This document shows positions 9,018 to 32,963 of a stretch of 33,032 nt of DNA, one piece after another. The notes below the pieces were generated by a model. That model searched no databases, was not told the DNA's origin, and saw only the letters and a list, made by a program, of their open reading frames with translations. The stretch is taken from IMG/VR virus record IMGVR_UViG_3300017726_000035, positions 1-33,032 of that record. One strand, 5' to 3'. Source of the DNA: a virus. The position numbers were made by a program, and so were the translations under genes. How positions within the stretch are numbered: position 1 is the stretch's first letter; each line of letters begins with the position of its first letter.

Positions 9018-10079
9018 ATGAAATCTCATAAAAAAAGATGGAGGGATAAAGGTAATCCTCGTTATCGCCTCAACTCAGACGAAGCACAAATTATAAACGA
9101 TTATAGAAGATTAAAACAGGAAGCAGAAGCTGAGGGTTTAAATCCAAATGATATTCATAGTGGTTGGATAAAAAACAAAAAAGCCAGTTTATATTTTAAA
9201 AATCCAAATTTTAAACAAAACGATTTAAAGGAGTTTAAGCAACAATTACTAAACGAACTTAAAGAATATTCACCTAACTTTGAAAAGATTGTAAAACCTA
9301 AGGTAAATGATGGACATTGCCTTTTAATATCTCCTGCGGATATTCATATCGGTAAATTATGTAAATCTTTTGTAAGTGGTGAAGAATACAATAAGCAAAT
9401 AGCAGTTCAAAGAACTTTAGAGGCTATTGATGGCATATTACAAAAGAGTAATGGTTTTAATATAGATAAATTAATTCTAGTTATTGGTAATGATGCAATG
9501 CATATTGACACATCAAGCGGAGGAAAGACTACAAAAGGAACAGTTCAGGATGTTGATGGTATGTTTTTTGAGCATTTTCACATTGCAAAAAGATTATATA
9601 TTAATATTATTGAAACTCTGGTTTCTTTTTATCCAGATTTACACGTTGTTTATAATAGTAGTAATCACGATTATTTGACTGGGTTTTGTTTAGCAGATAC
9701 GATAGCAACATACTACAGAAAAAGCAAGAATATAACTTTTGATATTAGTTTACAACATAGAAAGTATTATACGTATTATGATAATCTAATAGGTTCTACT
9801 CATGGAGATGGTGCTAAATGGGATTTATTGCCTTTATTAATGGCAGATGAGTGTTCAGAATGGAGTAGATGCAAGTATAGATATATGTTTACACATCACG
9901 TGCACCACAAAATATCAAAGGATTTGATAGGTTGTACTTTAAGCAGTTTCCGTAGTCCTAGTCCTGCAGATAGTTGGCATTCTAAAATGGGATATACTTC
10001 TTCTAATAATCAAGGTATTGAGGGAGTAGTGTTTTCAAAGCATAATGGACAAGTTGCTAGAATAACACATTTGTTCTAG
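9018..10079 (+). CDS. Calcineurin-like metallophosphoesterase, 353 aa
   Basis: All five metallophosphoesterase motifs are in order: D108-x-H110 in SPADIHIG, GND (157-159), NHD (216-218), HGD (262-264) and HHVHH (293-297). These bind a dinuclear metal centre. The basic N-terminal ~90 residues (KSHKKRWRDKG, later an Asp/Lys-rich helix) may bind DNA. Similar proteins occur in many phages as putative nucleases or phosphodiesterases related to Mre11/SbcD, but here no SbcC partner is seen. It stands after the lysis genes and ends in the 11-bp repeat at 10077. A TATATTTG at 8996-9003 upstream lacks a well-spaced TTG. Substrate unknown. Confidence 0.85.
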   Translation: MKSHKKRWRDKGNPRYRLNSDEAQIINDYRRLKQEAEAEGLNPNDIHSGWIKNKKASLYFKNPNFKQNDLKEFKQQLLNELKEYSPNFEKIVKPKVNDGHCLLISPADIHIGKLCKSFVSGEEYNKQIAVQRTLEAIDGILQKSNGFNIDKLILVIGNDAMHIDTSSGGKTTKGTVQDVDGMFFEHFHIAKRLYINIIETLVSFYPDLHVVYNSSNHDYLTGFCLADTIATYYRKSKNITFDISLQHRKYYTYYDNLIGSTHGDGAKWDLLPLLMADECSEWSRCKYRYMFTHHVHHKISKDLIGCTLSSFRSPSPADSWHSKMGYTSSNNQGIEGVVFSKHNGQVARITHLF

Positions 10080-10102
10080 CCACCCTATAGCCACCCTATA
10101 CC
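10077..10102 (+). repeat. Tandem 11-bp repeat (TAGCCACCCTA x2), left array
   Basis: Two perfect copies of TAGCCACCCTA (10077-10087, 10088-10098) are followed by TACC. The first copy begins with the stop codon of the phosphoesterase gene. A one-strand purine tract of A and G (10107-10133) follows, and then the promoter at 10147. The same order of repeat, purine tract and promoter occurs at 22025-22181. A spacing of 11 bp puts the copies on one face of the helix, as for an operator or replication iterons. Confidence 0.7.
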
Positions 10103-10146
10103 AATAAGAAAAGAAAAAGAAAAAGAAAAGATTTTTTGCTTCCGAT

Positions 10147-10177
10147 TTGGTTCGTATTATAATTATACTTATAATTG
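10147..10177 (+). promoter_or_regulatory. Promoter of the early region (Bacteroidota type)
   Basis: TTG (10147-10149) and TATAATTG (10170-10177) are separated by 20 bp. The 15 bases GATTTGGTTCGTATT (10144-10158) recur at 22148-22162 in the promoter of the gene at 22207, with the same spacing to the second box. It would drive the long rightward cluster from 10201. Confidence 0.68.
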
Positions 10178-10200
10178 TAAAGAATTTAAAAATTAACAAA

Positions 10201-10491
10201 ATGAAAACATTTAAAAACGTAAAATTATTTCAATCACAAGATAGACAAGGATTTTTAATTTCTTTAGATATTGAAGATTTAAAAAATGATACATACTCAG
10301 AAGAAAAATTAATCAATTGGTTAAAAAATAATCATAATGAAATTTATTGGGATATTGAATTGCATGAAAATGGAACTGTGAATTTAGAACAATATACAGA
10401 TGGCTATAGAATTGTGTTCAGTGGAGACAATGGAATTTTTATTCTTGAAGAGGTAGAAATTGAAAGAATAGTATTTAATCCAATGACATAA
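10201..10491 (+). CDS. First early-region gene, unknown protein, 96 aa
   Basis: The start at ATG 10201 is preferred over upstream in-frame alternative starts at 10147 and beyond because the promoter boxes lie at 10147-10177 and an A-rich leader (TTAACAAA) precedes this ATG. The protein is acidic and alternates short strands and helices: FLISLDIEDLKND, a helical EEKLINWLKNNHNE, then strands ending in RIVFNPMT. There are no membrane segments and no family I recognise. As the first gene behind a strong promoter it may be an early host-takeover protein; this is inference. Confidence 0.68.
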   Translation: MKTFKNVKLFQSQDRQGFLISLDIEDLKNDTYSEEKLINWLKNNHNEIYWDIELHENGTVNLEQYTDGYRIVFSGDNGIFILEEVEIERIVFNPMT

Positions 10492-10538
10492 AATAATTAA
10501 AAAAACAACTAAATAATAACTAATAAAAAACGAAAATT

Positions 10539-10730
10539 ATGCAACTAAATAGATATAAACAAAATTTAAGAATCGAAGGAAATAGAGTTATCAGTTACGT
10601 AACACACGTTGCTACAATTGACTGGTCAAACAGAGAACTACATCAACTAGGTTGGTGGAGTATGACAACTCAGAAGCATATTAATTACGTAGCTAGAGAA
10701 TATAATCTAGATTTAATTGATAAATCATGA
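10539..10730 (+). CDS. Small conserved-type phage protein, 63 aa
   Basis: The reading has a strand-rich start (RIEGNRVISYVTHVATID), then GWWSMTTQKHINYVA and a short C-terminal helix. I recall the pattern SYxTHVAxI...GWxSxTTxKHINYVA from small proteins in many phages and mobile elements (DUF8033-like), without known function. Its stop overlaps the start of the next gene as ATGA, giving translational coupling. The leader (AATAAAAAACGAAAATT) is A-rich as in other genes here. Confidence 0.68.
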   Translation: MQLNRYKQNLRIEGNRVISYVTHVATIDWSNRELHQLGWWSMTTQKHINYVAREYNLDLIDKS

Positions 10731-10942
10731 GTGATAAAAAACAAATGTATGTGCATGAAACCCTGACGTTCTTTGAGGACTCAGGGGAATTGCACATAGA
10801 ATGCGAACAAGGTTGGATTGTGTGGAACTTAGAGACTTTATACAATGATATTCCTCACATGTTACAATATTGTTTAGAAGAACATAAGAAAAAAGATAAA
10901 AGAATAAAACAAGAAATAACTGATATTTGTAAGAAAAAATAA
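10727..10942 (+). CDS. Unknown small protein, 71 aa
   Basis: Coupled to the upstream gene through an ATGA overlap. The protein is acidic in its first two thirds and strongly basic at the end (KKKDKRIKQEITDICKKK). A predicted helix covers residues ~38-65. There is no recognisable domain. Trp, His and Cys are more common than in the neighbours. It is part of the early string of small genes. Confidence 0.62.
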   Translation: MSDKKQMYVHETLTFFEDSGELHIECEQGWIVWNLETLYNDIPHMLQYCLEEHKKKDKRIKQEITDICKKK

Positions 10943-17602: not shown

Positions 17603-18389
17603 TGCTTTTATAAGTTTTGACAATAGTCAAGCAGGACTAATCATGGATGATTCTAAACATCCTTTATATCCAATAAAATATTGGAATGTTATTAATGGAG
17701 TTGGTATGGGAGAAGTTAATCCTAGACACTCTTATTACATTTATTTGTATAGTGGTGTCAGTAACTTAGAACAGTCAGGCAGAGCACCGCAGATTTTAAA
17801 TGAAGGGATGTTTGCATCTGTTCATGGTGATTTTGTTTTGAAATGTGGTGATAACAGCAAAGCCATTGTAATAGAAACAATTAATGAAAAAGGGGAATAT
17901 AAAAAAGATAACTTTTCAGCTTACTATATGCTTGGTGGTCCTATTGAAGAAACTGGTCGTTTAAAATATATTGATGGTTGTACTGATAGTTTACTTTTAA
18001 ATCCTGTTAAAATGGGAAACCCATGTTTAAATCATTTACATTTCCCTCACTCAATTGACCAAACACTACACACACATCCAACACATAGAATCGGAATAGT
18101 GGCTAGAGGTCATGGAGAATGCATTACTCCTTTTGGAAACTTACCATTGTATAAAGAAATGATTTTTGTGATAAAAGAGTGGGATGGAAAAACAATGAGA
18201 AAAGGATTAGATGGAAAAGATTATCCAGTAGGATTACACGCATTCAGAACATTTGATGAAACAATGGATGTAATAGCTTTTCATCCTGACTCTGATTTTG
18301 GAAGTACAGATGAGGTTCACCCTATGATTAACAGAACAATAGTAGATGGTAAAAAGGCTAGTCAAATAGAAGAAATACGAACCAAATGA
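17586..18389 (+). CDS. Double-cupin-like protein, 267 aa
   Basis: ATG at 17586 is preferred over an in-frame TTG at 17574. The C-terminal half has cupin metal-binding motifs: HLHFPHSIDQTLHTHPTHR, then GIVARGHGECITPFG, with His residues in place for an H-x-H...H-x-H site. The N-terminal half (SYYIYLYSG, then MFASVHGDFVLKCGD) looks like a second, degenerate beta-barrel, giving a bicupin. A third His-containing strand (VIAFHPDSDFG) follows. Cupins of this form are metal-dependent oxygenases, isomerases or ligand binders. Coupling on both sides (17-base overlap, then ATGA) to ParB-like and PAPS-reductase-like genes is unusual. Confidence 0.75.
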   Translation: MKKENDAFISFDNSQAGLIMDDSKHPLYPIKYWNVINGVGMGEVNPRHSYYIYLYSGVSNLEQSGRAPQILNEGMFASVHGDFVLKCGDNSKAIVIETINEKGEYKKDNFSAYYMLGGPIEETGRLKYIDGCTDSLLLNPVKMGNPCLNHLHFPHSIDQTLHTHPTHRIGIVARGHGECITPFGNLPLYKEMIFVIKEWDGKTMRKGLDGKDYPVGLHAFRTFDETMDVIAFHPDSDFGSTDEVHPMINRTIVDGKKASQIEEIRTK

Positions 18390-19558
18390 AAATAAGAAAA
18401 AAAGAATTTAAAGAAACATCTGTTTATGAAGAAGCATTAGCTAGGACAAGATATATTTATGAAAATGCTGACCACGTTTCTGTTTCTTTTTCTGGAGGTA
18501 AGGATAGCACAGCAGTTTTAAATATTGCTTTACAAGTGGCTAGAGAAAAAAATAAATTACCTTTGCATGTAGTATTTTTTGATGAGGAAGCAATACACCC
18601 TCCAACAATAGAATATGTTAAAAGAGTTGCAGAGAATCCAGATATAAACCTTGATTGGTATTGTCTAGAATTTAAACATAGAAACGCATGTTCAAATGAA
18701 GAACCTTTTTGGTTCACGTGGGATAAAGAAAAAAAAGATAAATGGGTCAGACCTATGCCAGAAAATGCAATTACTGAACATAAGTATTTCAGAAAGGGAA
18801 TGAGTTTTCAGGAATTTTGTCAATACATTTATCCAAGAGATTTAGGAAATGTTTATTGTCTAGTAGGTATTAGGACAGAAGAAAGTCTGACACGATACAG
18901 AGTTATAGCTAGAAAGAAAAATGACCATTTTATGAATACACATTTTGAGGGAAGTTCTTCCACTAAACGAGCATTTCCAATTTACGACTGGAGTTCAAAA
19001 GATGTTTGGTTAGCTGTTAAAAAGTTTGGTTGGGATTATAACACGACCTATGACATTATGAATAAAACTAAAATGTTTGGAAAATATTTAATTCAAAGAG
19101 TATGTCCTCCTTTTGGTGAAGAACCATTGCGAGGTCTGTGGATGTATGCAGAATGTTTTCCTGAAATGTGGCATAAGATGTTGAACAGAGTTAAGGGTGT
19201 TAATACAGCTTGGAGATATGCCAATACAGAACTGTATTCTAACGCAAGTAAAAAGCCAGAGGATTTAACTTATAAAGAATATTTTAATATTGTTCTAAAG
19301 AGTTATGATTTTGATTATCAAAACATAGTGAAAAAGACAGCAAATAGTTATATAAAGTATCACAAAAACAATACTAGTCAAATAGTTCCAGATGAGGAGT
19401 ATCACCCATTAAGCGGTGTCTCATGGAAATTTCTTTGTGATGTGGTTATTCGAGGAGATTTTAAAGGTAGGCAAAAACCTAAACTAATCAAGAATAGCCA
19501 ACAAACTATTAACAAATTAAAAATAACATTAGAAGAAGCAAAACTATTATACTCATGA
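18386..19558 (+). CDS. PAPS-reductase-like PP-loop protein (IbrA/DndC-like), 390 aa
   Basis: The PP-loop SFSGGKDS (residues 34-41) is followed by HVVFFDEEAIHPPT, the standard second strand of PAPS-reductase/ATP-pyrophosphatase proteins. Downstream are VGIRTEESLTRY and AFPIYDWSSKDVW, typical of the IbrA/DUF3440 branch and also of DndC. DndC adds sulfur to DNA, but no DndA, D or E is seen here. The following ParB-like gene matches the usual IbrB partner, so an IbrA-IbrB-type pair is the best reading. The role in phages is not settled; activation of gene expression and DNA modification have both been suggested. Both junctions are ATGA overlaps. Confidence 0.82.
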   Translation: MKIRKKEFKETSVYEEALARTRYIYENADHVSVSFSGGKDSTAVLNIALQVAREKNKLPLHVVFFDEEAIHPPTIEYVKRVAENPDINLDWYCLEFKHRNACSNEEPFWFTWDKEKKDKWVRPMPENAITEHKYFRKGMSFQEFCQYIYPRDLGNVYCLVGIRTEESLTRYRVIARKKNDHFMNTHFEGSSSTKRAFPIYDWSSKDVWLAVKKFGWDYNTTYDIMNKTKMFGKYLIQRVCPPFGEEPLRGLWMYAECFPEMWHKMLNRVKGVNTAWRYANTELYSNASKKPEDLTYKEYFNIVLKSYDFDYQNIVKKTANSYIKYHKNNTSQIVPDEEYHPLSGVSWKFLCDVVIRGDFKGRQKPKLIKNSQQTINKLKITLEEAKLLYS

Positions 19559-20055
19559 AAAAACAACCACTAGAAAAAATACAATGGATTGACAGAGAAA
19601 AGTTAATACCAAATAATTATAATCCAAATAAAGTAGCACCTCCAGAACTAGAACTTCTCAAAATATCAATACTTGAAGATGGTTGGACTCAGCCAATTGT
19701 TTGTAATAATGATTACACTATTGTAGATGGTTTTCACCGTTGGACTGTATCTGGTAATAAGGAAGTAAATAAATTAACTGATGGGAAAGTTCCTGTAGTT
19801 ATTTTAGATAGAGCAGATGAGAACCATAAAAGAATGTCCACAATAAGACACAACAGGGCAAGAGGAACACATGGAGTTCTTGAGATGTCAAAAATTGTAA
19901 TTGATATGTCAGAGAATGGAGCAACAGGTGAGGAGATAATGAAACGATTACAAATGGAAAAAGAGGAAGTTGTTAGATTATTACAAAGGTCAGGAATACC
20001 AAAAGACAAAGTATTTAAAGAGTCTGAATTTAGTAATTCATGGCAACCAAAATAA
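19555..20055 (+). CDS. ParB/Srx-domain protein, IbrB-like (third of three), 166 aa
   Basis: The ParB-like domain covers residues ~5-90: WIDREKLIPNNYNPNKV, ILEDGWTQPIV, then the motif IVDGFHRWTVSG. It continues with RMSTIRHNRARGTH, a stretch typical of IbrB-like proteins that pair with IbrA-type PAPS-reductase-like proteins. The end has a possible HTH (GATGEEIMKRLQMEKEEVVR). Start overlaps the upstream stop (ATGA). It overlaps the small-terminase gene by 16 bases, so the cassette is in one transcript with packaging genes. Confidence 0.82.
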   Translation: MKKQPLEKIQWIDREKLIPNNYNPNKVAPPELELLKISILEDGWTQPIVCNNDYTIVDGFHRWTVSGNKEVNKLTDGKVPVVILDRADENHKRMSTIRHNRARGTHGVLEMSKIVIDMSENGATGEEIMKRLQMEKEEVVRLLQRSGIPKDKVFKESEFSNSWQPK

Positions 20056-20417
20056 CCAGAAAAAAACGTGAGAATATGGCAAATGAACAAAACTTAAAAC
20101 CTTTTGAAAAGGGAAACACATTTGGGAAAGGTAGACCTAAAGGAAGTTTAAATAGAAGTACCATTGCTAGAAAGTGGTTAAATACTTCCAGAGTTGGGAA
20201 GAATCCTATTACTGGTCAAGAAGAAATATTAAGTCAGGAAGATGTTATTACTTTGGCTATAATCAGAAAAGCTATTGATGGCGATGTACCAGCATATAAG
20301 GCTTTATTAGATTCTGCACATGGTACAGCAAAAGACACCATTGATATAAAGAGTGAACATGTAGGAATTGACTTTGACCAATTAATGTCAAAGTTAGGCA
20401 AGAATGCTAAATCCTAA
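20040..20417 (+). CDS. Small terminase subunit-like protein, 125 aa
   Basis: Residues ~20-45 contain PFEKGNTFGKGRPKGSLNRS, the GxRPKGSxNR motif of DUF5681-type proteins that sit directly before large terminases and probably serve as DNA-recognition subunits. Then follows a helical segment with VITLAIIRKAIDGDVPAYKA. It overlaps the large terminase by 14 bases. An in-frame ATG at 20076 is an alternative start. It would recognise the packaging site; no cos or pac site can be named from sequence alone. Confidence 0.75.
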   Translation: MATKITRKKRENMANEQNLKPFEKGNTFGKGRPKGSLNRSTIARKWLNTSRVGKNPITGQEEILSQEDVITLAIIRKAIDGDVPAYKALLDSAHGTAKDTIDIKSEHVGIDFDQLMSKLGKNAKS

Positions 20418-21606
20418 ATTCAATATATTTTATAATCCAACTAGATACTTTCTTTTAACAGGAGGTCGTGGCTCTGGTAAATCTTTTGGAGTAGCTCTAA
20501 ATGTATTACTGCTATCACTAGATAATAAGTTCCAACAAAAAATATTATTTACTAGATATACATTAACCTCAGCAAGAATATCAATTATTCCAGAGTTCAA
20601 AGAGAAGATTGATTTAATGGGTTGGAATGATAACTTCCACATAACCAATAATGAAATAACAAATTTAATCACTGGAGCAAAGATATTGTTTAGGGGTATT
20701 AAAACTAGCTCAGGCGACCAGACAGCAAATCTTAAATCATTACAAGGTATTACTACTTGGGTAATTGATGAAGCTGAGGAGATGGTAGATGAAAACATAT
20801 TTGACAAAATAGATTTTTCAGTTAGACAACAAGGTTCTAAAAACAGAGTAATAATGATTATGAATCCATCAACTAAGGAGCATTGGATATATAAAAGATT
20901 TTATGAGTTGTCAGGTGTTCCATCTGGATTTAGTGGAATTAAAGATGATACTACATATTGCCATAGTACTTACTTAGATAATATTGATAATCTCTCTGAG
21001 AGTTATATCCAGAGAATAGAACAAATGAAAGTCAGGCGACCAGAAAGATATAAGCATACTATTGAGGGTGCTTGGCTTGATAAAGCTGAGGGAGTTATTT
21101 TTACACGTTGGGAGATAGGAGAATACAGAGAGATAGGACCTACAGTTCTAGGTCAAGACTTTGGATTTTCGTCAGACCCATCAACGCTTATCATGACTAG
21201 TATTGATAAGGATAATAAAAGAATATATATTAAAGAATGTTTTTACGAAACTAAATTAACAACCAGTCAGATAGCTGTATTAAATAAAAAGTTTGCAGGA
21301 GATAATCTTATTGTTGGAGATTCTGCAGAACCTAGATTAATCCAAGAGTTGTCTAGAGAATGTAATATTGTTGCCAGTATTAAAGGACAGGGTAGTGTTA
21401 ATTTTGGTATCTCATTATTACAGGATTATGACTTAATTATTGATTCAAGTTCGATTAATGTTGTCAAAGAATTGAATAACTATGTATGGCTTGAGAAGAA
21501 AAGTTTAACTCCATGTGGTTCATTTAATCACACTTTGGATGCAATTCGTTATGCTGTAAGCTATCAATTACAGAATCCAAACGTGGGTGAATACTACATT
21601 CATTAA
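20404..21606 (+). CDS. terL: Terminase large subunit, 400 aa
   Basis: The ATPase domain shows Walker A GGRGSGKS (residues 20-27) and Walker B WVIDEAEE (119-126; D122, E123). MIMNPSTKEHW is the coupling strand. The C-terminal RNase H-like nuclease has three acidic positions in the usual setting: D252 in GQDFGFSSDPS, D306 in IVGDSAEP and D379 in NHTLDAIRYAVSY. Length (400) is on the short side of the usual 400-550. It docks on the portal and pumps DNA into the head. The portal gene is distant (3372), an uncommon order, and the putative structured RNA lies directly downstream. Confidence 0.93.
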   Translation: MLNPKFNIFYNPTRYFLLTGGRGSGKSFGVALNVLLLSLDNKFQQKILFTRYTLTSARISIIPEFKEKIDLMGWNDNFHITNNEITNLITGAKILFRGIKTSSGDQTANLKSLQGITTWVIDEAEEMVDENIFDKIDFSVRQQGSKNRVIMIMNPSTKEHWIYKRFYELSGVPSGFSGIKDDTTYCHSTYLDNIDNLSESYIQRIEQMKVRRPERYKHTIEGAWLDKAEGVIFTRWEIGEYREIGPTVLGQDFGFSSDPSTLIMTSIDKDNKRIYIKECFYETKLTTSQIAVLNKKFAGDNLIVGDSAEPRLIQELSRECNIVASIKGQGSVNFGISLLQDYDLIIDSSSINVVKELNNYVWLEKKSLTPCGSFNHTLDAIRYAVSYQLQNPNVGEYYIH

Positions 21607-22631: not shown

Positions 22632-22660
22632 AAGCTACTGTAACAAGTAGCTTTTTTTTT
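22632..22660 (+). terminator. Intrinsic terminator before the tail operon
   Basis: AAGCTACT (22632-22639) pairs with AGTAGCTT (22646-22653) over a 6-base loop and runs into nine T (22652-22660). It ends the two-gene small transcript. A TAGATTTG (22662-22669) directly behind it fits the TAnnTTTG box but has no well-placed TTG. Between the last gene and this stem, 22592-22595 and 22618-22621 (GAGG/CCTC) may pair. I see nothing else in 22584-22706. Confidence 0.85.
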
Positions 22661-22706
22661 CTAGATTTGTATATAACGATTCACTAATTAATCCGTTTAT
22701 ATAATA

Positions 22707-23378
22707 ATGAAGTTAAGCATTACAATTCCAGAAAACTTAAATGATGTCAGTCTAGGACAGTATCAAAAATGGTTAAAGATTGCCAAAGATAAAGAACAAG
22801 ACCATTTCCTGCAGAAAAAAATGATTGAGATATTTTGTAATGTTCCTTTAAAACAAGTATTGCAAATCAAAGCAAATGATATAAAAAACATTTGTTTAGA
22901 AATATCTAAGTTGTTTACTAAAGAACCTAGATTCATTGATAGGTTTAATCTTAATGGAAAAGAGTTTGGATTTGTACCTAGTCTTGATGAAATGACTTTC
23001 GGTGAATACGTTGATTTAGATACTTATTTGAATGACTGGGATTTGATGCATAAAGCAATGGGAGTATTATTCAGACCAATAACATATAAAAAGAAGAAAC
23101 AGTATTTGATAGAGGATTATGAAAGAGCTGATAAATACGATATGAAAGATATGACTCTGGATGTTGTATTTGGTGCGACTGTTTTTTTTTACAATTTAAA
23201 GAACGAATTACAGAAAGTTATTCTGAGCTATTTGGCGATACAGAAGGAGATAGAATTGCCACAGCATCTTCGGGATTCTCTGCTAAATGGGGCTGGTATC
23301 AATCAATATACGGACTGGCAAACGGAGACATCCTTAAATATGATGAGATTACAAAACAAAACATCCACAAGTGTTTGA
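22707..23378 (+). CDS. Tail assembly chaperone-like protein, zero-frame product, 223 aa
   Basis: The sequence fits a tail-chaperone-type protein of Bacteroidota phages: LNDVSLGQYQKWLKIA at the start, FGFVPSLDEMTFGEYVDLDT, then WDLMHKAMGVLFRPITYK and MTLDVVFGATVFFYN. Its place before tail-completion and tape-measure genes matches the lambda G/GT site. The zero frame passes through nine T at 23182-23190 and stops at 23376-23378. From the same T-run the -1 frame is open and gives a second product (see 22707-23443). The zero-frame tail (NGAGINQYTDWQTETSLN) looks like a natural C-terminus of this family, so both products may be made. Confidence 0.72.
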   Translation: MKLSITIPENLNDVSLGQYQKWLKIAKDKEQDHFLQKKMIEIFCNVPLKQVLQIKANDIKNICLEISKLFTKEPRFIDRFNLNGKEFGFVPSLDEMTFGEYVDLDTYLNDWDLMHKAMGVLFRPITYKKKKQYLIEDYERADKYDMKDMTLDVVFGATVFFYNLKNELQKVILSYLAIQKEIELPQHLRDSLLNGAGINQYTDWQTETSLNMMRLQNKTSTSV

Positions 23379-23443
23379 CATTTTTATCATTTGAAAAAGA
23401 CAAGTATAAACTAGAAACGCAAATGCTTAAAAGCAAAAGATGA
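22707..23443 (+). CDS. Predicted -1 frameshift fusion of the tail chaperone (G-GT-like), 245 aa
   Basis: Join of 22707-23189 in frame 0 with 23189-23443 in frame -1, giving 161 + 84 residues. After the T-run the -1 frame has no stop for 84 codons and encodes KWGWYQSIYGLANGDILKYD followed by EITKQNIHKCLTFLSFEKDK. I recall this as a conserved C-terminal segment in Bacteroidota phage tail proteins. Its TGA (23441-23443) overlaps the next ATG (23440) as ATGA, as at most junctions here, while the zero-frame stop leaves a 61-base gap. This fits a lambda-type G-GT pair. A one-base indel in the homopolymer is the alternative. Confidence 0.62.
23181..23191 (+). other. Putative -1 ribosomal slippery site (G plus nine T)
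   Basis: In zero frame the codons are GTT TTT TTT TAC; the heptamer T TTT TTT meets the X XXY YYZ rule. After slipping by one base the next codon is TTA (23189-23191). Homopolymer T runs also slip in transcription. I do not see a strong hairpin directly behind it. Confidence 0.6.
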
Positions 23444-23706
23444 CAAAAGAAGAAATATTAAATGAATTAACCGACAGGGATTTGTTAAATCCTAATATGG
23501 AGATAATTCTAGTGGATGGTTTTGAAGAAGCATTTTTAGGAATAACAGTAGAAAAATATCCAGTTGCAATATATGACTATTGGATATGTCTTGATATTTT
23601 AGTTCAGAAAGAGAATCTAAACTTTGATTATGCTATTGATAGTCTTGACGAGTTTATTGCTCAGGATTTAGGAAAACACACACCAATATATATGAAACCA
23701 GTATGA
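23440..23706 (+). CDS. Small tail-region protein, 88 aa
   Basis: The start overlaps the TGA of the frameshifted chaperone product and the stop overlaps the next start (ATGA). The sequence VDGFEEAFLGITVEKYPVAI followed by YDYWICLDIL, then HTPIYMKPV, is one I recall from many phages (acidic, ~90 aa), often annotated as hypothetical and not limited to tail regions. There is no membrane segment. The function is unknown. The double coupling makes it a firm gene. Confidence 0.72.
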   Translation: MTKEEILNELTDRDLLNPNMEIILVDGFEEAFLGITVEKYPVAIYDYWICLDILVQKENLNFDYAIDSLDEFIAQDLGKHTPIYMKPV

Positions 23707-24158
23707 ACAGTTTTTACAACATAACAGATAAAATTAAACAAGTAGTATCAGCAGAGCCATTTAATAATGAAATGACTTTTGGAGATATATCAGATATTGA
23801 CCTAAAAAAACAAAGTTTATTTCCATTGGCTCATTTAACTGTAAATAATGCAACAATAAATGACAACTTTGTAAATCTTAATATGACTATCTTTTTTATG
23901 GATATAGTCGATAGTAGTAATGAGCAGACAAGAGATTACTTTACTGGAAATGACAATCTCCATGATATATTAAATACTCAATTGGCTCTAGCTACTAGGA
24001 TGATGAGGGTGTTACAAAAGAGCAATTTATACACTGACAAATTTGAATTAATTAATCCAGCTACTTGCGAACCATTCACAGAAAGATTTGACAACACTCT
24101 AGCAGGATGGGCGGTTACGTTTGATGTAGGTACTAAAGACGAAATGACTTTTTGCTAA
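23703..24158 (+). CDS. Tail completion/terminator-like protein, 151 aa
   Basis: The protein begins NITDKIKQVVSAEPFNNEMT followed by FGDISDIDL, has the core FMDIVDSSNE and FTGNDNLHDILNTQL, and ends PATCEPFTERFDN, then AGWAVTFDV. This matches a family typical of Bacteroidota siphovirus tail regions, where it lies before the gp10-like protein and the tape measure. By position it corresponds to tail-terminator proteins of the lambda gpU type. The fold is inferred, not seen directly. It overlaps both neighbours (ATGA at the start, TAATG at the end). Confidence 0.65.
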   Translation: MNSFYNITDKIKQVVSAEPFNNEMTFGDISDIDLKKQSLFPLAHLTVNNATINDNFVNLNMTIFFMDIVDSSNEQTRDYFTGNDNLHDILNTQLALATRMMRVLQKSNLYTDKFELINPATCEPFTERFDNTLAGWAVTFDVGTKDEMTFC

Positions 24159-24637
24159 TGAGTGAGTTTAGAAAGGCATTAGAGAAATACGCTAAGTATG
24201 TTATTCAACAGTCAAGAAGTAATTTGACTAAAAAGAAAAACAATGCATCTAAGCAATTATATAATAGTCTAGAATATAAAATAACAGGCGACAGAGTAAA
24301 GTTTATTAGTGAAGATTATGGAGAGTTTGTTGATAGAGGAGTTAAAGGTTCTAAATCAACTTATCCTGAAAGCTCTGCCAGTCCATTTAGATATACCACT
24401 AAACAACCACCAAGTTCAGTATTTGATAAGTGGAGTATAAGAAAAGGTATTGCACCAAGAGATAGTAAAGGAAGATTTATTAATAGACAATCACTTAATT
24501 TTTTAATTGCTAGAAGTATCAAGAACAAAGGAATTAGAGCAACATTATTTTTTACTAAGCCATTTGAAAGAGGTTTAGATTTATACGGAGACGAAATAGT
24601 TGCAGGATATTTAGAAGATAAATTAAATTTACAATGA
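24158..24637 (+). CDS. HK97 gp10-like neck/tail-completion protein, 159 aa
   Basis: ATG at 24158 is chosen over an in-frame TTG at 24152; it overlaps the upstream TAA. The core VKFISEDYGEFVDRGVKG is the typical gp10 motif (Y-G-x-F-V-D-x-G-V-x-G). It is preceded by a basic helix and followed by a Ser/Pro-rich loop and IARSIKNKGIRATLFFTKPF, also usual in the family. Such proteins act at the neck when tails join heads. The stop overlaps the next start (ATGA). Confidence 0.72.
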   Translation: MSEFRKALEKYAKYVIQQSRSNLTKKKNNASKQLYNSLEYKITGDRVKFISEDYGEFVDRGVKGSKSTYPESSASPFRYTTKQPPSSVFDKWSIRKGIAPRDSKGRFINRQSLNFLIARSIKNKGIRATLFFTKPFERGLDLYGDEIVAGYLEDKLNLQ

Positions 24638-25779
24638 GTACAATAATAAGAACAAGAAGTCCTTTCTTTATAAGGACACCACAAGAGACTAGTAGTCTTT
24701 TAAACTACTTTCAAATTAATATACAATTACATGGAGGACAAAGTGGTTCAAGCGAAATATGTGATGATTTATATGCCGCTTATCAATTACAGAAAACACC
24801 ATTAGGAAGTGAAACATCTGTTTCATTTGATATTAGCGAAATAGTAAATGATAATATTCAACAAATATTTACAGGAACTTATTCTGACTCATCTGTGAAA
24901 AGTTCTATCTGGGTAGTTGTTCAAACCTCAGCAAGACAAATTGATGGTAGTATAATTGGCTCAGTAACTTCAAATACTTATTTAGCTCAAGAAGGATATA
25001 ATAAATTTAAAGAGGGCGTAAACTATACAGTAGAACCTATTGCAATGATGACAGGAACATATTTTGAATATCATAAAGGAAGTCCACTTACGATACCAAT
25101 AAATTCCGAGAGAGTTAGTCAGGTTCAATATATAAGTGCTAATGGCATTACAGTTGGAACGCAAAATTTTACTGATAATGGACATCAGAATCAAAAAATA
25201 GAATATTCTCAATTTACTGCTACAGATGTTAAAGATGTTGCAAGAGTTAAAATAACTTATGACACAACAAATTTTACAACTATTTATACAACAGAAATTG
25301 AAGAATGCAAATATCCAGTTAATAAAATAACATTTGTAAATAGATGGGGAGCAATGCAAGATTTATTCTTTTTTAAGAAATCAACAGAAAGTTTAGATGC
25401 TACTAGAGAGAACTTTAATTCAAGTATATTTAAAGCAAGAAGTGTTCAGTTAGAGCCTGGCGAAGAGCCTGGAGACGATTGTGATGAAACTATTACTTAC
25501 AACACTTATTCAACAACAGCACACTCAAAGAAAACATTTAATGCTAATGCTACAGAATCTATTCTGCTAAACAGTGGATTTGTTAATGAATTAATGAATC
25601 CATTTTTTGAGGAGTTAATGGTTAGTGAATACATTTGGCTAACTGATTCTAGTGCTAATATTTATCCAGTTAATTTAAAAGAAAGCTCATTTGCTAAAAA
25701 GACAGGATTAAACGATAGATTAATAAACTATACAATGAGTTTTGAAAAATCATTCCATTTAATAAATAATATTAGATAA
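24634..25779 (+). CDS. Tail structural protein, 381 aa
   Basis: Beta-rich with a start (TIIRTRSPFFIRTPQETSS) that I recall from large tail proteins of Bacteroidota phages; later FDISEIVNDNIQQ and FVNRWGAMQDLFFFKKSTES. There is no enzymatic motif. It is coupled to the gp10-like gene (ATGA) and its last base overlaps the next start (25779). It is likely a distal-tail or baseplate component, placed as such because it precedes the larger tail protein and the tape measure. The acidic insertion PGEEPGDDCDE at ~270-282 looks like a surface loop. Confidence 0.65.
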   Translation: MSTIIRTRSPFFIRTPQETSSLLNYFQINIQLHGGQSGSSEICDDLYAAYQLQKTPLGSETSVSFDISEIVNDNIQQIFTGTYSDSSVKSSIWVVVQTSARQIDGSIIGSVTSNTYLAQEGYNKFKEGVNYTVEPIAMMTGTYFEYHKGSPLTIPINSERVSQVQYISANGITVGTQNFTDNGHQNQKIEYSQFTATDVKDVARVKITYDTTNFTTIYTTEIEECKYPVNKITFVNRWGAMQDLFFFKKSTESLDATRENFNSSIFKARSVQLEPGEEPGDDCDETITYNTYSTTAHSKKTFNANATESILLNSGFVNELMNPFFEELMVSEYIWLTDSSANIYPVNLKESSFAKKTGLNDRLINYTMSFEKSFHLINNIR

Positions 25780-28238
25780 TGCAAAAAGTAATTCTATACA
25801 TACAACCTAAACTAGTAAATACTGAAACAGAGCAGGACTATGTTAGAGTTGATTTAATGGAAGAAGAATTAATTACTTTGACTCAAGTTATTCAAGATGT
25901 AAAAGATATTGAGAAACTGTTTACAGACTATTCTAGGACTTTTAACCTACCTGCGAGTAAAACCAATAACAAAATATTTAAATACTGGTTTAATCCAGAC
26001 GTAAACCAATTTAACAGCCAAACCTTTAGTAAAGCAAAAATTGAATTAAATCATTTTGAGTTTAAGACTGGTACAATACAATTGAATGAAGTTATAATGA
26101 AACATAACAAACCATCAATGTATAAAGTAACATTCTTTGGACAAACTACAGATTTTGCAAATTCTCTTGCTGAGGATGAATTGACTGACTTGATTTGGTT
26201 AAATAATTTTAGCCATGATTTTACTTTAGAAACTCAATCAGGAACTACTTACCCAAATGTAAAAGATGGTTTAGAAAATGGTTTAAATTTTACTGTGGAT
26301 AGTGTTACTTATAACGATGCTATCATTTATCCTTTAATAGCTCATTCTTTGAGTTATATATACAACTTAAATGCAGACCATCAAAATCCAGTAAATATTT
26401 CTACACACTCATCAAATGACCAAAAAAGAGGAGTTTTGCCAGTAGATTTAAAACCTGCTGTTTCTGTAAAAATGATTTTAAAAGCAATAACAGAAAAATA
26501 TAATATTAATTTTAAATCAGGAGGTTTCTTTGATTCAGACGTATTTAACGATATGTATATGTGGCTACATAGAGAAAAAGGACCAATGGTATTAAGCAAG
26601 AGTAAAAACTTTATTGATGTAAGCAATTTAACTTGTGGAAATATATCTGGAGGAGGTACAAATCCAGACTGTACTCAATTAACTGACCAAACATTTACAC
26701 CACCATCAGGAAGTATTCTAGGAGGTAAAACTAATTTTCAGCAAAGAGGTTGGTTCTCAATAACAACAGGAAACAACGAAAGACGAGGAGTTTTCTTTTA
26801 TAGTGCATATATGTTTATGGCTGATGAAAACCATCAATTTACTGTGAATGTAACTCCCAACGTAAACAATGTTCCATACACAATTGAAATAGTAAGAGAC
26901 AACAACAATGAAGTCTATGCTAGAAGCACAAACAATCTAGGTGCAAGTTCATTGACTATGGAAATATTTACTGACCCAGATTCACCATTTAATCCAACTG
27001 GTAATAAATTAAATAGAGCTGACTTGTATTTTTTAAGAACTGGTGGTTTAAATATATTTGGAACACACCATGAATTTTATGCCAGAATAAGTTGCGAAGA
27101 AGCTATTACTGTAAATATGACTTATGACTTAGTAAGGTCTTGGACAGCTCAAGCACAACAAGGCGGTTCAACTGAAACAGTTAGTGGAAGAATGACAATG
27201 TCAAACAGTATAACGGTAAATACAGAATATATACAAATTACATCACAACTTCCTAAACTAAAAATAAAAGACTTTTTAAATGGTTTATTTAGAAAATACA
27301 ATTTAATTGCCAGACTAAATTTTCAGAATGAGATAATAGTTGAGCCATTAGATAGCTTTTATGATGGTGGACAAACTTTTGATTTAACTGAATATACAGA
27401 TACTGAACAGCATACTGTTGGAGAGGTTATACCATTTAGCGAAGTGGACTTTGAATACTCAGAACCAAAGACAATACTTGCTCAACAATTTGAATTACTT
27501 AATAATAAAAAATACTCAGAATTAAATTTTCTATCTCAAGCCAGTAATAAAAATATATATCAAATTAAACTACCTTTTGAGAGTGTTATTTATGAAAGGT
27601 TATTTGACCAAGGCGATGGAACTGCAACATCAATACAAGTAGGAACATTTTTAAATGAAGATTTAGAACCAGATATAGGAATGCCACTTTTATTTTATGG
27701 CATACATCAAACAACATCCACAACGAATATAAATTTTGTGTATTCTACTAGAGAAGATTTATCACAAGGTAATCACTCAAATTTTAGTTTGAATACATAC
27801 TGGATACCTAGTGCAAACAACGAGTTAGGAACATCAACAACTCCACCAGATTACAATCTAAATTTTGGTAGTGAAATAAATACTTACACTTTGACAGATT
27901 ATGCAGGAGTGAACAATAGTTTATTTGAGAAATATTATAAAAATTATATTTTAAGATTGTTTAACACTAGAACAAGGATATTCAAATTTAAAGCAATACT
28001 ACCTTTAAAAGTATTATTGAATCTAAGTCTAGATGATTTGATTATTGTAGGAACAAGAGCTTTTACAATAAACAAAATGACAACGAAACTACAAAGTGGA
28101 GAAACAAATTTTGAACTGTTAAATGAACCAACAATTATTAGAGTAGGAATTGAATATGATTCTGCATCTTATTGCACAACAGATAGCGACCCTACCCCAT
28201 CAGTTCAACCATCTGGAGGAACATTTAGCGTAATTTAA
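25779..28238 (+). CDS. Large tail/baseplate-hub-like protein, 819 aa
   Basis: The N-terminal part (VRVDLMEEELITLTQVIQDV onward, then DIEKLFTDYSRTFNLPASKT) has the pattern of large minor tail proteins in Bacteroidota siphoviruses, with a 'YSRTFxLPxSxxNxxIF' box. Residues ~290-480 are Thr/Asn/Gly-rich beta, possibly a carbohydrate-binding or Ig-like insertion. Then comes LPKLKIKDFLNGLFRKYNLI, a hub-like segment repeated in this protein family. There is no peptidase motif. It probably builds the tail tip that carries the fibre encoded at 5652. Confidence 0.65.
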   Translation: MQKVILYIQPKLVNTETEQDYVRVDLMEEELITLTQVIQDVKDIEKLFTDYSRTFNLPASKTNNKIFKYWFNPDVNQFNSQTFSKAKIELNHFEFKTGTIQLNEVIMKHNKPSMYKVTFFGQTTDFANSLAEDELTDLIWLNNFSHDFTLETQSGTTYPNVKDGLENGLNFTVDSVTYNDAIIYPLIAHSLSYIYNLNADHQNPVNISTHSSNDQKRGVLPVDLKPAVSVKMILKAITEKYNINFKSGGFFDSDVFNDMYMWLHREKGPMVLSKSKNFIDVSNLTCGNISGGGTNPDCTQLTDQTFTPPSGSILGGKTNFQQRGWFSITTGNNERRGVFFYSAYMFMADENHQFTVNVTPNVNNVPYTIEIVRDNNNEVYARSTNNLGASSLTMEIFTDPDSPFNPTGNKLNRADLYFLRTGGLNIFGTHHEFYARISCEEAITVNMTYDLVRSWTAQAQQGGSTETVSGRMTMSNSITVNTEYIQITSQLPKLKIKDFLNGLFRKYNLIARLNFQNEIIVEPLDSFYDGGQTFDLTEYTDTEQHTVGEVIPFSEVDFEYSEPKTILAQQFELLNNKKYSELNFLSQASNKNIYQIKLPFESVIYERLFDQGDGTATSIQVGTFLNEDLEPDIGMPLLFYGIHQTTSTTNINFVYSTREDLSQGNHSNFSLNTYWIPSANNELGTSTTPPDYNLNFGSEINTYTLTDYAGVNNSLFEKYYKNYILRLFNTRTRIFKFKAILPLKVLLNLSLDDLIIVGTRAFTINKMTTKLQSGETNFELLNEPTIIRVGIEYDSASYCTTDSDPTPSVQPSGGTFSVI

Positions 28239-28243
28239 AAAAT

Positions 28244-28381
28244 ATGAAAACAATATTAGAGGCATTAGAATTTTGTAAGGAGAACAAATTGTATTCTCCA
28301 TATATTAAGATAGCATTAGGTATTAACAAAGTACCATTAACATTTAAAGAGGGGTTTAATCAATTAAGAATGAAGAAATGA
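28244..28381 (+). CDS. Small protein before the tape measure, 45 aa
   Basis: ATG at 28244 follows the large tail gene by five bases, and its TGA (28379-28381) overlaps the tape-measure start (ATGA). The sequence is basic and helical (TILEALEFCKENKLYSPYIK onward, ending RMKK). No family is recognised. It may be a translational lead for the tape-measure gene or a small tail chaperone. Coupling is the main evidence. Confidence 0.5.
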   Translation: MKTILEALEFCKENKLYSPYIKIALGINKVPLTFKEGFNQLRMKK

Positions 28382-31300
28382 GTAATAAGGTCGTTACAGT
28401 AACATTAAAAACAGATACAAAACAAACTGATAAAAAACTTGATAAAGTTAATAAGAGTTTAAAGAAAACTGAAAAACAGGCTAAGGAAACAGGCGGTGCA
28501 ATGACATCAGCTTTCAACGCATTACCAGCCTCTGTTCAAGGATTAATAGGTCAGGTTAAAAATTTAGGTACATCTTTCAAAGCAATAGCGGTTGGTGGAG
28601 TTGTAGGAGCAATTGCAGGACTAGGAACATTATTTGTTACTGCTACTAAAAAAGGAGCTGAGTTTGCAAAACAAATGTCTACTCTAGAAGCTGTTTCTGG
28701 AGCAAGTGCTATTGAGATGGGAAAAATGGCGGAATCCGCTAAACAGTTAGGAGCAAGTACTCAATTCACAGCAATGCAAGTTGGTGAGCTACAAACTGAA
28801 TTTGCTAAGATGGGATTTTCTACTGACCAGATTCTAGCCTCAACAGAAGCAACACTAGCCTTAGCCGCATCAATGGAAGTAGGGTTAGCAGAAGCAGCTA
28901 CTTTAGCAGGTTCAACTGTAAATGCTTTTGGATTAGAAGCTGAGGACACTCAAAGGGTAGTTGATGTATTAGCAAAGAGTACAAGTACAAGTGCATTAGA
29001 TTTCAGTAGTTTAACAGAATCATTAAAAAATGTAGCACCATCAGCCAAAGCAACGAATGTAACTGTCGAAAAAACTACTGCATTGTTAGCGGTATTAGCT
29101 GATAATGGTATAAAAGGAAGTAGAGCAGGAACTGGATTAACAGCCGCCTTTGTTGAATTAAATAAAAAAGGATTAACATTAGAAGAAGCTTTAAAACAAA
29201 TTGGAGAAAGTTCCAACCAATTAGGTACTGCGATGGACATAGCAGGAAAACAAGGTGGTAAGGCTTTATTAACATTAACAGGACAAGAAGATAAAATTGA
29301 TAGATTAACTCTATCCTTAGAAAACTCAGCAGGTGCGGCTCAAGAAATGGCTGAGGTAAGATTAGATAATTTAGCAGGAGACACGACTAAATTAGGTTCA
29401 GCATGGGAAGGATTCTTATTATCAATTGAAGATGGAGAAGGTATGTTTAACAGTATTGCAAGAGGTATAGTTCAAGCCACTACAGCCTTATTAAACTTTA
29501 TCACACCAACAACAAAACTTTCTGAGCAGTTAGAAAAAGAAAGAATTGAACTATTCAAGACAGAGGCTGAACTGGATAGACTTGACACCAAAATGCAAGA
29601 TGCTACTTTATCAGAAGAAGAATTAAAACTGGTGCAAGATGAACGTATCGCAATTATACAAGATTTAAAAAAGGAATATCCTGATTTATTAAAAGACATA
29701 AAAGCAGAAGAAGTTTCAACTCAAGACTTGAAAAAAGCTATTGATGAAGTGAATAAATCTTTAATCAATAAAATATTAATTCAAGAAAAGGAAGAAGAGA
29801 TAATGGAACAAGCTGAGGAATCAGCAGAAGAACTTAATGACTTGCTTGAAAAAGAAGCTGAAACAAGAGATTTCGTTGCTAAATTACAAGCTGAATATAC
29901 AAAACTAGGACTAGAGTTTCAAGAGACTGACCCAGTTAAGTTTCAAAAAGAATTAAACGATGTTATAGAAAGAGAAAAACAATTATTAAGGGAGGGCAAT
30001 GGAGAAAACAAACTTAAAATTGGTCAATTATCTACACTACAAAAAAGGCAAAATGATTTATTATTTAAAATAAAATCAGTAAATAAAGCTGAGGAAAATT
30101 ATCAAGAAGAAGTTGAAAAAGGAAATGTTCTTTTAAACGAAAAAGATGCTATACTAAAAAGACTGGGTATTACTCAAGATGAAGAAATTGAAAAAACAGA
30201 AGAAAGCAATGATGCTACAAGTGAAGAAATTGAAAGCATTACAAGTTTAATCAAGATTCAGGAAGATTTACTGGAACAAGCTCAACAAATGCCAGAATCA
30301 ACTGAGGCAGAATTGAAAGCTAAAAATAGAAAGATTGATGCTATAAATACTGAAATTAAAAGACTTAAATCTCTAGGGGTAGAACAAAAAAAGGAAAATA
30401 AAGAAACAACAGATTTAATTGCTTTAAAACAACAAGAGCTTAAAGACATACAAAATACTGAGGCGGCAACTAAAAAAGAAGTTGCTCAAAGAAATGACAG
30501 GATAAAAGCAATACAAGACGAGATTAAAGAACTACAAAATCTTTCATTAAAAAAACTTGGTATTGAAAAAATTGATACTGAATCTTTGCCGAAACTAGAA
30601 AGAAGAGAAGCTAAAAAAGTCAAAGTAAGAACCAACACAGAAGACCAAGTTAATAGATATGTAAGAAAGGTAGAGGATTTGACTGTTGATTATGTAAGAA
30701 TGACTGAGGAAGAGAAAAGAGCACTCAGACAAAAAAATGTTGAATTTACAGCCAATGCTCTAGCACAAGCCTCTTCTATAATTTCAGGATTTGCTGAATT
30801 GAATCAAGAAAAGTTTGATACTTTAAATGAAAATGTTATTCAAGAGCAAGAAAGATTAAGTCAGCAAATACTAAATAATGAATCATTAACAAATAAGCAG
30901 AAAAGGATTGAGATTGCAAGAATGAACGCTGCCAAAGAAAAAGAACTAGATGCTAATAACAAAAGAGCTGAGAGAGCTTTTAATGTTCAAAAAGGTGCTA
31001 ACATTGCAACAGCATTAGCAACAACTTACTTGACAGCAGTACAAGCCTATCAATCACAGTTTATGCCAATTCCTGACCCTTCCTCACCAATTAGAGGTTC
31101 GATAGCGGCAGGTCTTGCTGTTGGAGCAGGACTTATGAATGTGGCACAAATAAGAAGGCAAAAATTTGAAGCAGCCTCTTTTGCACCAGTAGAATTACCT
31201 CAACCAAACTTGAGTGCAGGTGCAGGTGGTGGAGCAGATGGTGGAGCATCACAAACGCAAGCACCTAGTTTTAATGTAGTAGGTCAATCAGGATTTAATC

Positions 31301-31413
31301 AAATTGCAGGAGCTTTAGGTTCAGCAGGACCAATTCAAGCATTTGTGGTTTCTGGTGATGTAACTACTGCTCAACAATTACAAAACAATACAATTACACA
31401 AGCAACTTTTTAA
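28378..31413 (+). CDS. Tape measure protein, 1011 aa
   Basis: Typical layout: a basic coiled-coil start, a hydrophobic stretch at ~68-88 (AIAVGGVVGAIAGLGTLFV), then the PhageMin_Tail/TP901 core domain with AKQLGASTQFTAMQVGELQT, AGSTVNAFGLEAEDTQRVVD and GIKGSRAGTGLTAAFVELNK. A long coiled coil covers about 385-900. A second, small hydrophobic part (~890-925) and a Gly/Ala/Gln-rich end follow. At about 1.5 A per residue the tail would be near 150 nm, a siphovirus tail. It works with the G/GT-like chaperone at 22707. Confidence 0.9.
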   Translation: MSNKVVTVTLKTDTKQTDKKLDKVNKSLKKTEKQAKETGGAMTSAFNALPASVQGLIGQVKNLGTSFKAIAVGGVVGAIAGLGTLFVTATKKGAEFAKQMSTLEAVSGASAIEMGKMAESAKQLGASTQFTAMQVGELQTEFAKMGFSTDQILASTEATLALAASMEVGLAEAATLAGSTVNAFGLEAEDTQRVVDVLAKSTSTSALDFSSLTESLKNVAPSAKATNVTVEKTTALLAVLADNGIKGSRAGTGLTAAFVELNKKGLTLEEALKQIGESSNQLGTAMDIAGKQGGKALLTLTGQEDKIDRLTLSLENSAGAAQEMAEVRLDNLAGDTTKLGSAWEGFLLSIEDGEGMFNSIARGIVQATTALLNFITPTTKLSEQLEKERIELFKTEAELDRLDTKMQDATLSEEELKLVQDERIAIIQDLKKEYPDLLKDIKAEEVSTQDLKKAIDEVNKSLINKILIQEKEEEIMEQAEESAEELNDLLEKEAETRDFVAKLQAEYTKLGLEFQETDPVKFQKELNDVIEREKQLLREGNGENKLKIGQLSTLQKRQNDLLFKIKSVNKAEENYQEEVEKGNVLLNEKDAILKRLGITQDEEIEKTEESNDATSEEIESITSLIKIQEDLLEQAQQMPESTEAELKAKNRKIDAINTEIKRLKSLGVEQKKENKETTDLIALKQQELKDIQNTEAATKKEVAQRNDRIKAIQDEIKELQNLSLKKLGIEKIDTESLPKLERREAKKVKVRTNTEDQVNRYVRKVEDLTVDYVRMTEEEKRALRQKNVEFTANALAQASSIISGFAELNQEKFDTLNENVIQEQERLSQQILNNESLTNKQKRIEIARMNAAKEKELDANNKRAERAFNVQKGANIATALATTYLTAVQAYQSQFMPIPDPSSPIRGSIAAGLAVGAGLMNVAQIRRQKFEAASFAPVELPQPNLSAGAGGGADGGASQTQAPSFNVVGQSGFNQIAGALGSAGPIQAFVVSGDVTTAQQLQNNTITQATF

Positions 31414-31424
31414 AATAAAAAAAC

Positions 31425-32963
31425 ATGGATATAGTAGAATTAATATTAGACGAAGAAAACGAAGAAATGGTCGGTATCGATGCAGTCAGCATTGTAGAAA
31501 ATCCAGCTATTGAAAGTGATTTCATTGCATTGTCAAAAGAAGAAATAAAACTGGCTAAGGTAGATGAAGAAAAGAAAATACTTATGGGTGCGGCCTTAAT
31601 TCCGAACAAACCTATTTTCAGGAAAAGAAATGAAACAATGTTTTATGTATATTTTTCTAGAGATACAGTTAGGAGAGCAAGTGAATTATTCTTTCAAAAT
31701 GGTAATCAAAACAACGCAACACTAGAACATGAGATGAGCGTGAATGGTTTAACTGTAGTAGAGTCTTGGATAGTTGAGGATTCTAAGATGGATAAATCTG
31801 CTAAGTATGACCTTGAAATGCCTGAGGGTACTTGGATGATTTCAATGAAAGTAGAGAATGAAGAAATCTGGAATGATTATGTCAAAACTGGTAAAGTAAA
31901 AGGATTTAGTATTGAGGGATATTTTGCAGATAAGGCACAAATTAAAAAACCAGATACAAAAGCAGAGATGCAAGCTATTGAAGAAGAAGAAGCTGAATAC
32001 ATGTTGAGCAATATTATAGCAGTAATTAAAAATGACAAGAGAACTAAATCTGGTAAAAAGATAGAATTAGAAACTTACAATGATTATCCTCAGGCAGTAA
32101 GTAATAATGCTAAAAGAGGAATTGCTTTAAATGAAAAAGTTAATAATAAATGTGCCACGCAGGTAGGAAAAATTCGTGCAACACAGCTCCGAGATAAAGA
32201 AAAACTCTCAGTACAAACAATAAAAAGAATGTACTCTTATTTATCAAGAGCTCAGGAATATTATGATGAGGGTAACAATCAAGCGTGTGGTACTATTAGT
32301 TATTTATTGTGGGGAGGTAAAGCAGGTTTAAGATGGTCAGAAAGCAAATTAAAAAAACTAGGAGAAATTAAATTAAAATCAATTGCAGTTGATGACAGCT
32401 TTGCAATTATTGACGACAGGCTTGCATATTCCGATAAAGAGAAAGCCTTGGAAATGGCACGTAACATAGGTTGTCAGGGCTTTCACGTTCATGAGTTTGA
32501 TAATAAAACGTGGTATATGCCTTGCGAAAAGCATTCTATGGCTGAGGTTGGACCAAAGGGAGGTATAAAAAAAAGTCCTAAAGCACCAAAGTCAGACACA
32601 CCAAATAAAAATCCAAAAGGAAAAGGTACTGCAAAAGGAGATGCCTCAACAAGTAGAGGTGCTAAAGTAAGTAAACAAGATGAATCTACATTACAAAAAA
32701 AAGCAGATGATTTTAACGAGAGATATAAAAAGAAACTAGGTTATGGAGTAACTATTGGTCAGCTAAAAACAGTTTTTCAAAGAGGATTAGGTGCATTCAA
32801 TACATCACATTCTCCAAATGTAACAAGTGCAAAGCAATGGGCATTTGCCAGAGTTAATGCTTATTTATATCTAGTTAAAAACGGAAGACCACAGAATCCA
32901 AAATATAATACTGATTACGATTTATTACCAAGTAAACATCCTAAATCACCAAAAAAGAAATAA
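31425..32963 (+). CDS. XkdF-like prohead protease with C-terminal extensions, 512 aa
   Basis: Residues 1-170 match the XkdF-like serine protease (Peptidase S78-type): VDAVSIVENPAI-like start, LEHEMSVNGLTVVESWIVED with H102, and VKGFSIEGYF with S162, the expected His/Ser pair. Residues ~205-300 are a second domain (YPQAVSNNAKRGIAL, RSxLKxRxxE-like helices, CGTISYLLWGGKAG). Residues ~415-495 resemble the DUF5824-type domain (KADDFNERYKK, TVFQRGLGAFNTSHSP). A Lys/Ser-rich linker (370-410) and a basic tail join them. The protease would mature scaffold and capsid before packaging. It is separated from the capsid operon by the small gene at 56, a terminator and the minus-strand gene. The 123-bp repeat starts within it. 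Confidence 0.82.
   Translation: MDIVELILDEENEEMVGIDAVSIVENPAIESDFIALSKEEIKLAKVDEEKKILMGAALIPNKPIFRKRNETMFYVYFSRDTVRRASELFFQNGNQNNATLEHEMSVNGLTVVESWIVEDSKMDKSAKYDLEMPEGTWMISMKVENEEIWNDYVKTGKVKGFSIEGYFADKAQIKKPDTKAEMQAIEEEEAEYMLSNIIAVIKNDKRTKSGKKIELETYNDYPQAVSNNAKRGIALNEKVNNKCATQVGKIRATQLRDKEKLSVQTIKRMYSYLSRAQEYYDEGNNQACGTISYLLWGGKAGLRWSESKLKKLGEIKLKSIAVDDSFAIIDDRLAYSDKEKALEMARNIGCQGFHVHEFDNKTWYMPCEKHSMAEVGPKGGIKKSPKAPKSDTPNKNPKGKGTAKGDASTSRGAKVSKQDESTLQKKADDFNERYKKKLGYGVTIGQLKTVFQRGLGAFNTSHSPNVTSAKQWAFARVNAYLYLVKNGRPQNPKYNTDYDLLPSKHPKSPKKK

Follow-up and report, generated by a model that had tools for sequence, protein, structure and literature searches.

Frameshifted tail assembly chaperones are textbook knowledge, and tail assembly chaperones as such are highly divergent. 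The slip site of lambda G/GT is G-rich. T4-like tail chaperones were reportedly treated by Vladimirov et al. in 2022 (cited in PMC10885494), and gp26 and gp51 are presumably the T4 genes concerned; their products share an N domain between a short and a long form and both match phrog_150, but they are encoded by two separate genes. In lambda G/GT and in many siphoviruses, a gene of the tail block yields a short form and a fusion with a C-terminal helical domain (PMC5009743). A frameshifted tail-tube protein is known from SPP1 (PMC8718954). At the level of transcription, programmed realignment occurs at T runs longer than eight (PMC3711429), and in Shigella mxiE a nucleotide added at a U run fuses two ORFs (PMC1088944).

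Here, we describe a frameshift gene in a window of 33,032 nucleotides (IMG/VR virus record IMGVR_UViG_3300017726_000035, positions 1 to 33,032), which originates from a phage of marine Bacteroidetes. The frame-0 ORF (22707..23378, plus strand, as are all genes of this block given below) encodes 223 aa, matches phrog_32199 (E 1e-12) and ends with TGA at 23376-23378; it would represent the short, ‘G-like’ product. Its slip site, G TTTTTTTTT (23181..23190), consists of a G at 23181 and nine T at 23182-23190, as the initial annotation had placed it. Codons 159-162 read GTT TTT TTT TAC in frame 0, with the in-phase heptamer T_TTT_TTT at 23183-23189. Read in the -1 frame from 23189, the sequence begins with TTA CAA TTT and stays open for 84 codons (LQFKERITESYSELFGDTEGDRIATASSGFSAKWGWYQSIYGLANGDILKYDEITKQNIHKCLTFLSFEKDKYKLETQMLKSKR) until TGA at 23441-23443, in agreement with the open frame first noticed. 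This ‘T-like’ domain (23189..23443 including the stop) carries the motif KWGWYQSIYGL...FEKDK and, joined to the N domain that is common to the short and long products (residues 1-161), gives a predicted long product of 245 aa. The start of the next gene (88 aa, 23440..23706) overlaps the -1 stop as ATGA and the frame-0 stop leaves a gap of 61 nt, so the two stops are arranged as originally described. The window contains six A/T runs of at least nine, and only the one at 23182-23190 is followed by two long overlapping frames.

At the sequence level, the shift of frame thus falls close to the 3' end of the short ORF and gives a short and a fused long product. As in lambda G/GT, there would be a short form and a low-level -1 fusion with a second domain, the gene lies in the tail module and the end of the second domain overlaps the next gene. 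It differs from lambda G/GT in lacking detectable sequence homology and in having a T9 slip site in place of a G-rich one. A homologous gene is found next to the terminase large subunit gene (TerL) in the Nonlabens (Persicivirga) phages P12024S and P12024L (Inhavirus), again with T9 and a -1 extension; there, however, it was deposited as two hypothetical proteins (gp38+gp39 and gp40+gp41, respectively) with no frameshift annotated. These proteins belong to phrog_32199 and phrog_38404, and a fused query of the N and T-like domains aligns by tblastn in two pieces across both frames of the P12024S/L genes.

The junction was compared across 302 loci, comprising 80 IMG/VR relatives (49-83% identity), 63 relatives of P12024S, 80 loci of a third clade and 79 retrieved with a diverse profile; the latter 79 are new with respect to the other three sets, and the junctions of all four sets were read by script. 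The T run is uninterrupted and in identical register in all 302 loci (T9 in 271, T10 in 30 and T12 in one), so that the site codons are xTT TTT TTT Txx, or the corresponding longer series, and the T_TTT_TTT heptamer is in phase in every locus. Elsewhere in the frameshift genes, TTC accounts for 449 of 1600 Phe codons (28%); judged from these sequences, the slip site is conserved beyond codon usage. The -1 extension measures 80-92 codons in 289 of the 290 loci that are complete on both sides. The sole exception, L218, has a stop five codons past the slip (L218:1942-1956); its near relative L220 has no stop at that position. The extension meets the next gene through ATGA in 176 and through TAATG in 38 of 290 relatives. 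When 80 loci were retrieved by the -1 domain alone, without conditioning on the slip site, each had at least nine T (80/80), some of these loci lying on contigs already present in the other sets. The same T run and -1 arrangement occur on a contig of a Bacteroidetes bacterium MAG (L084), and a prophage survey of 395 Bacteroidota genomes returned a single positive, namely the MAG contig used as centre. Taken over the 302 loci, of which a single one has lost the -1 ORF, the comparison strongly supports the programmed -1 frameshift that had been proposed.

Homopolymers are error-prone, and if faulty sequencing or assembly had altered the length of the T run, the gene would really be one continuous ORF. 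We rejected this artefact, to which we attach next to no probability, since the run is shared by relatives including the cultured phages: hundreds of separately assembled contigs and two cultured phage genomes have T9 in the same register, the T10 and T12 relatives preserve the -1 offset through codon changes, and both frames are under selection. It is also very improbable that the -1 ORF has an internal start of its own, as a gene apart, and is not a frameshift fusion. P12024S and P12024L do have an ATG within the -1 frame, from which gp39 (in the GenBank record of P12024S) and gp41 were annotated, but the protein is conserved from the T run onward (LxFKxRI...) with no conserved start codon, and this reading leaves the conservation of the T run unexplained.

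Ahead of the slip, the sequence differences among relatives fall at codon positions 1/2/3 in proportions of 0.30/0.20/0.49, the pattern of frame 0, and past the frame-0 stop in proportions of 0.32/0.22/0.45, the pattern of the -1 frame; the overlap region lies between the two. Synonymous divergence was expressed relative to the codon-usage expectation in 82 non-redundant sequences, in blocks of 12 codons. It amounts to 0.94-1.01 of expectation in most of the N domain (~0.97 upstream of the slip). In the -1 frame past the slip, it is 0.54 for codons 1-12 and 0.65 for codons 13-24, followed by 0.94, 0.71, 0.87 and 0.88. Because the -1-frame synonymous divergence falls there, frame 0 constrains approximately the first 24 codons past the slip. 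In frame 0, synonymous divergence is low (0.25-0.67) across the whole overlap, and the length of the frame-0 tail ranges from 16 to 88 codons among relatives. Synonymous shuffling, with P values that apply per sequence to sequences that are mutually related, gave P 0.004 in the window for the openness of frame 0 given the -1 protein, P < 0.06 for the same quantity in 30 of 31 representatives, and P 0.0005 in the window for the converse, the openness of the -1 frame given the frame-0 protein.

The sequence comparison therefore indicates clear selection on both frames at approximately 23191..23262, and selection mainly on the -1 frame from 23262 to 23378. The dual coding that the initial annotation assigned to all of 23191-23378 holds for the first of these stretches and gives way to mostly -1-frame selection beyond it; the codon-position and synonymous-divergence tests took the place of the dN/dS comparison suggested there. 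A frame-0 NGxGI motif is conserved, yet we rejected it as a sign of frame-0 selection, as it arises for the most part from KWGWY read in the -1 frame. Conservation of only one frame among relatives, the outcome named beforehand as contrary to frameshifting, was not what we found: the -1 frame is open in all but one and both frames are selected.

We consider it most likely, with a probability of about 0.6 (roughly 60:40 against slippage of RNA polymerase), that ribosomal -1 slippage produces two nested proteins, a short and a long chaperone-like form; the shift itself we infer from sequence. Normal decoding would yield the abundant 223-aa form. On reaching GTT TTT TTT TAC, a few of the ribosomes would slip back one base, the Phe tRNAs in the P-site and A-site re-pairing on T_TTT_TTT, and decoding would continue in the -1 frame. 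In place of the last 62 residues, the long form (245 aa in total) would carry a helical domain of 84 residues, and its translation would terminate where the -1 stop and the next start overlap as ATGA. If roles are divided as in lambda G/GT, the N domain common to both forms might coat the tape measure protein and the -1 domain of the minor form might recruit the major tail protein.

Downstream RNA structure is frequent but not obligatory at -1 frameshift sites. A downstream hairpin or pseudoknot was rejected as a stimulator, with z -0.6 for the sequence in our window and a family mean near zero: among 85 non-redundant loci, the mean z ranged from -0.18 to +0.16 over seven downstream windows, with no excess stability. 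T_TTT_TTT is reported to be less shift-prone than A_AAA_AAG in E. coli (PMC5009743). As an alternative, RNA polymerase may slip, some transcripts gaining one U (U10) and bringing the -1 domain in frame; the resulting protein would be identical to the product of the ribosomal slip. Slippage of the polymerase stays a serious, if less probable, rival because every run has at least nine T and no excess of downstream structure is detected. The heptamer needs only seven T, but lineages with S-FFF-H, I-FFL-W, IFFFY and V-FFF-Y all retain 9-12 T, within the range of Tn (n>8) used in programmed transcriptional realignment (PMC3711429). Shigella mxiE, which joins two overlapping ORFs by nucleotide gain at its U run (PMC1088944), and Thermus dnaX likewise have a long T or A run (nine in Thermus dnaX); neither is a phage tail gene, and at our locus realignment is a candidate only. 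On the other side, the two T flanking the heptamer can be explained by protein constraint in the two frames (the site has V/L/I/F before FF, and L/F comes first in the -1 frame), as they occupy the first or second position of hydrophobic codons in one frame or both, and the published tail-chaperone cases that we found are ribosomal by description. A more doubtful proposition is that, in a large group of aquatic Bacteroidetes phages, the ratio of short to long tail chaperone is set by the polymerase slipping at a run that must hold nine T or more, and not by ribosomal frameshifting; if true, slippage in transcription would have taken the place of the lambda G/GT mechanism there.

Whichever machinery slips, the frameshift gene belongs to a conserved block. 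TerL (20404..21606) lies next to it on the upstream side in almost all long loci. Downstream of the 88-aa gene lie neck/tail genes of 151, 161, 381 and 819 aa (23703..28238), syntenic in all long loci, and the tape measure gene (28378..31413; 1011 aa), an assignment that we regard as certain from its matches to phrog_1533 (E 1e-55) and Pfam PhageMin_Tail (E 1e-31). The order TerL, frameshift gene, (88 aa), 151, 161, 381, 819 aa, tape measure, protease is conserved from TerL to the protease in all sufficiently long loci. In the window, five genes and ~5 kb separate the frameshift gene from the tape measure gene, and in relatives the tape measure match lies 5.5-7.3 kb downstream. Based on this conserved order, the gene is part of the tail block without adjoining the tape measure gene, and thus does not take the place in front of the latter that the initial annotation gave for lambda and many siphoviruses. 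The lambda gene, by comparison, is located between the major tail protein and tape measure genes, whereas the gene described here comes after TerL. No other chaperone candidate, nor another small gene before the tape measure gene, was found in the window.

Our best guess is that the gene probably encodes a tail assembly chaperone, because its anatomy (a short form, a helical C-terminal fusion, a place in the tail block) is that of lambda G/GT. The G/GT-like designation is thereby upheld as to the tail gene block of the tape measure, which contains the gene in all long loci, the short and fused forms and the status as only candidate, but not by any significant sequence or fold match. Pfam, NCBIfam and the named PHROGs returned no significant match to the frameshift product, and the PDB, searched by sequence and by fold, no significant chaperone match; the tail-protein C-terminus that had been called recognisable matches no named family. 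Alignment with lambda G and T and with T4 gp26 and gp51 revealed no detectable homology. Weak matches to phrog_166 (‘tail protein’) were discounted, as different regions of the profile were hit. AlphaFold predicts the frame-0 product with a confident N domain (whole-model pLDDT 82), of alpha/beta fold and ending in a long helix that contains the slip site; the -1 domain is predicted as all-helical with low confidence (pLDDT 64).

Alternatively, the gene with the programmed frameshift could encode a virion component, a structural protein of the neck or tail, to which the -1 domain would add a minor extension as in SPP1 gp17.1/17.1* or T7 10A/10B. The precedent of the SPP1 tail tube (PMC8718954), the position after TerL, before neck-like genes and five genes ahead of the tape measure gene, and the lack of chaperone homology of the frameshift product are compatible with such a role. 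We nevertheless consider it unlikely: a predicted alpha/beta N domain with an all-helical -1 domain is unlike the FN3-type extension of SPP1, the window offers no other chaperone, and the best named Foldseek matches besides P12024S, although very weak (E 0.14 and 0.17), are tail assembly (chaperone) proteins.

Significant matches in BFVD were confined to uncharacterised phage relatives. Among BFVD entries, the uncultured phage proteins A0A6J5N0W0, A0A6J5N3F3, A0A6J5SVK3, A0A6J7XA66 and A0A6J5MY57 (234-267 aa) match the model of the N domain as well as that of the -1 domain, some weakly, and are perhaps single-ORF fusions for that reason. The genes just before the tape measure gene in Flavobacterium phage hattifnatt and Cellulophaga phage Nekkels showed no detectable kinship. 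On its minus strand (10042-10927), Flavobacterium phage 6H apparently encodes a distant relative of the N domain (10355-10927; hhalign pairwise E 3e-5), followed by an ORF in an overlapping frame whose end overlaps the next gene as ATGA. The -1 domain did not align in 6H, where no slip site stood out clearly; 10042-10927 may be a further frameshifted gene whose slip site differs.

The frameshift assignment, made on comparative grounds, is new for this widespread, unannotated family of aquatic Bacteroidetes phages, as are the invariant site of at least nine T, for which no stimulator was detected, and the gene's unusual location after TerL. The flavobacterial phage papers that we found, covering part of the literature, make no mention of the frameshift gene. 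The assignment offers a functional lead for the unannotated phrog_32199 and phrog_38404, present in hundreds of aquatic phage contigs, and corrects the split annotation in P12024S/L. The natural set of homologues with an invariant run of at least nine T would allow ribosomal and transcriptional slippage to be distinguished.

The frameshift gene probably opens a tail operon. A terminator-like hairpin with T9 (22633-22669) is immediately followed by TAGATTTG, which we take to fit the flavobacterial promoter element TAnnTTTG. This element occurs within 120 bases upstream in 21 of 84 relatives versus ~9 expected, with a cluster between -58 and -42; a hairpin with a T run precedes the frameshift gene in 29 of 83 relatives, mostly near -50. 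At opposite ends of the contig, the genes at 31425-32963 and 744-1379 correspond to the N and C halves of one PHROG (phrog_24921); the contig ends therefore probably join up, the genome being circular or permuted, and the order across the joined ends would be protease - scaffold - capsid - portal. At 18386-20055, a gene resembling PAPS reductase and, behind it, one resembling ParB were recognised by eye; together they presumably correspond in type to the IbrA/IbrB pair of other phages.
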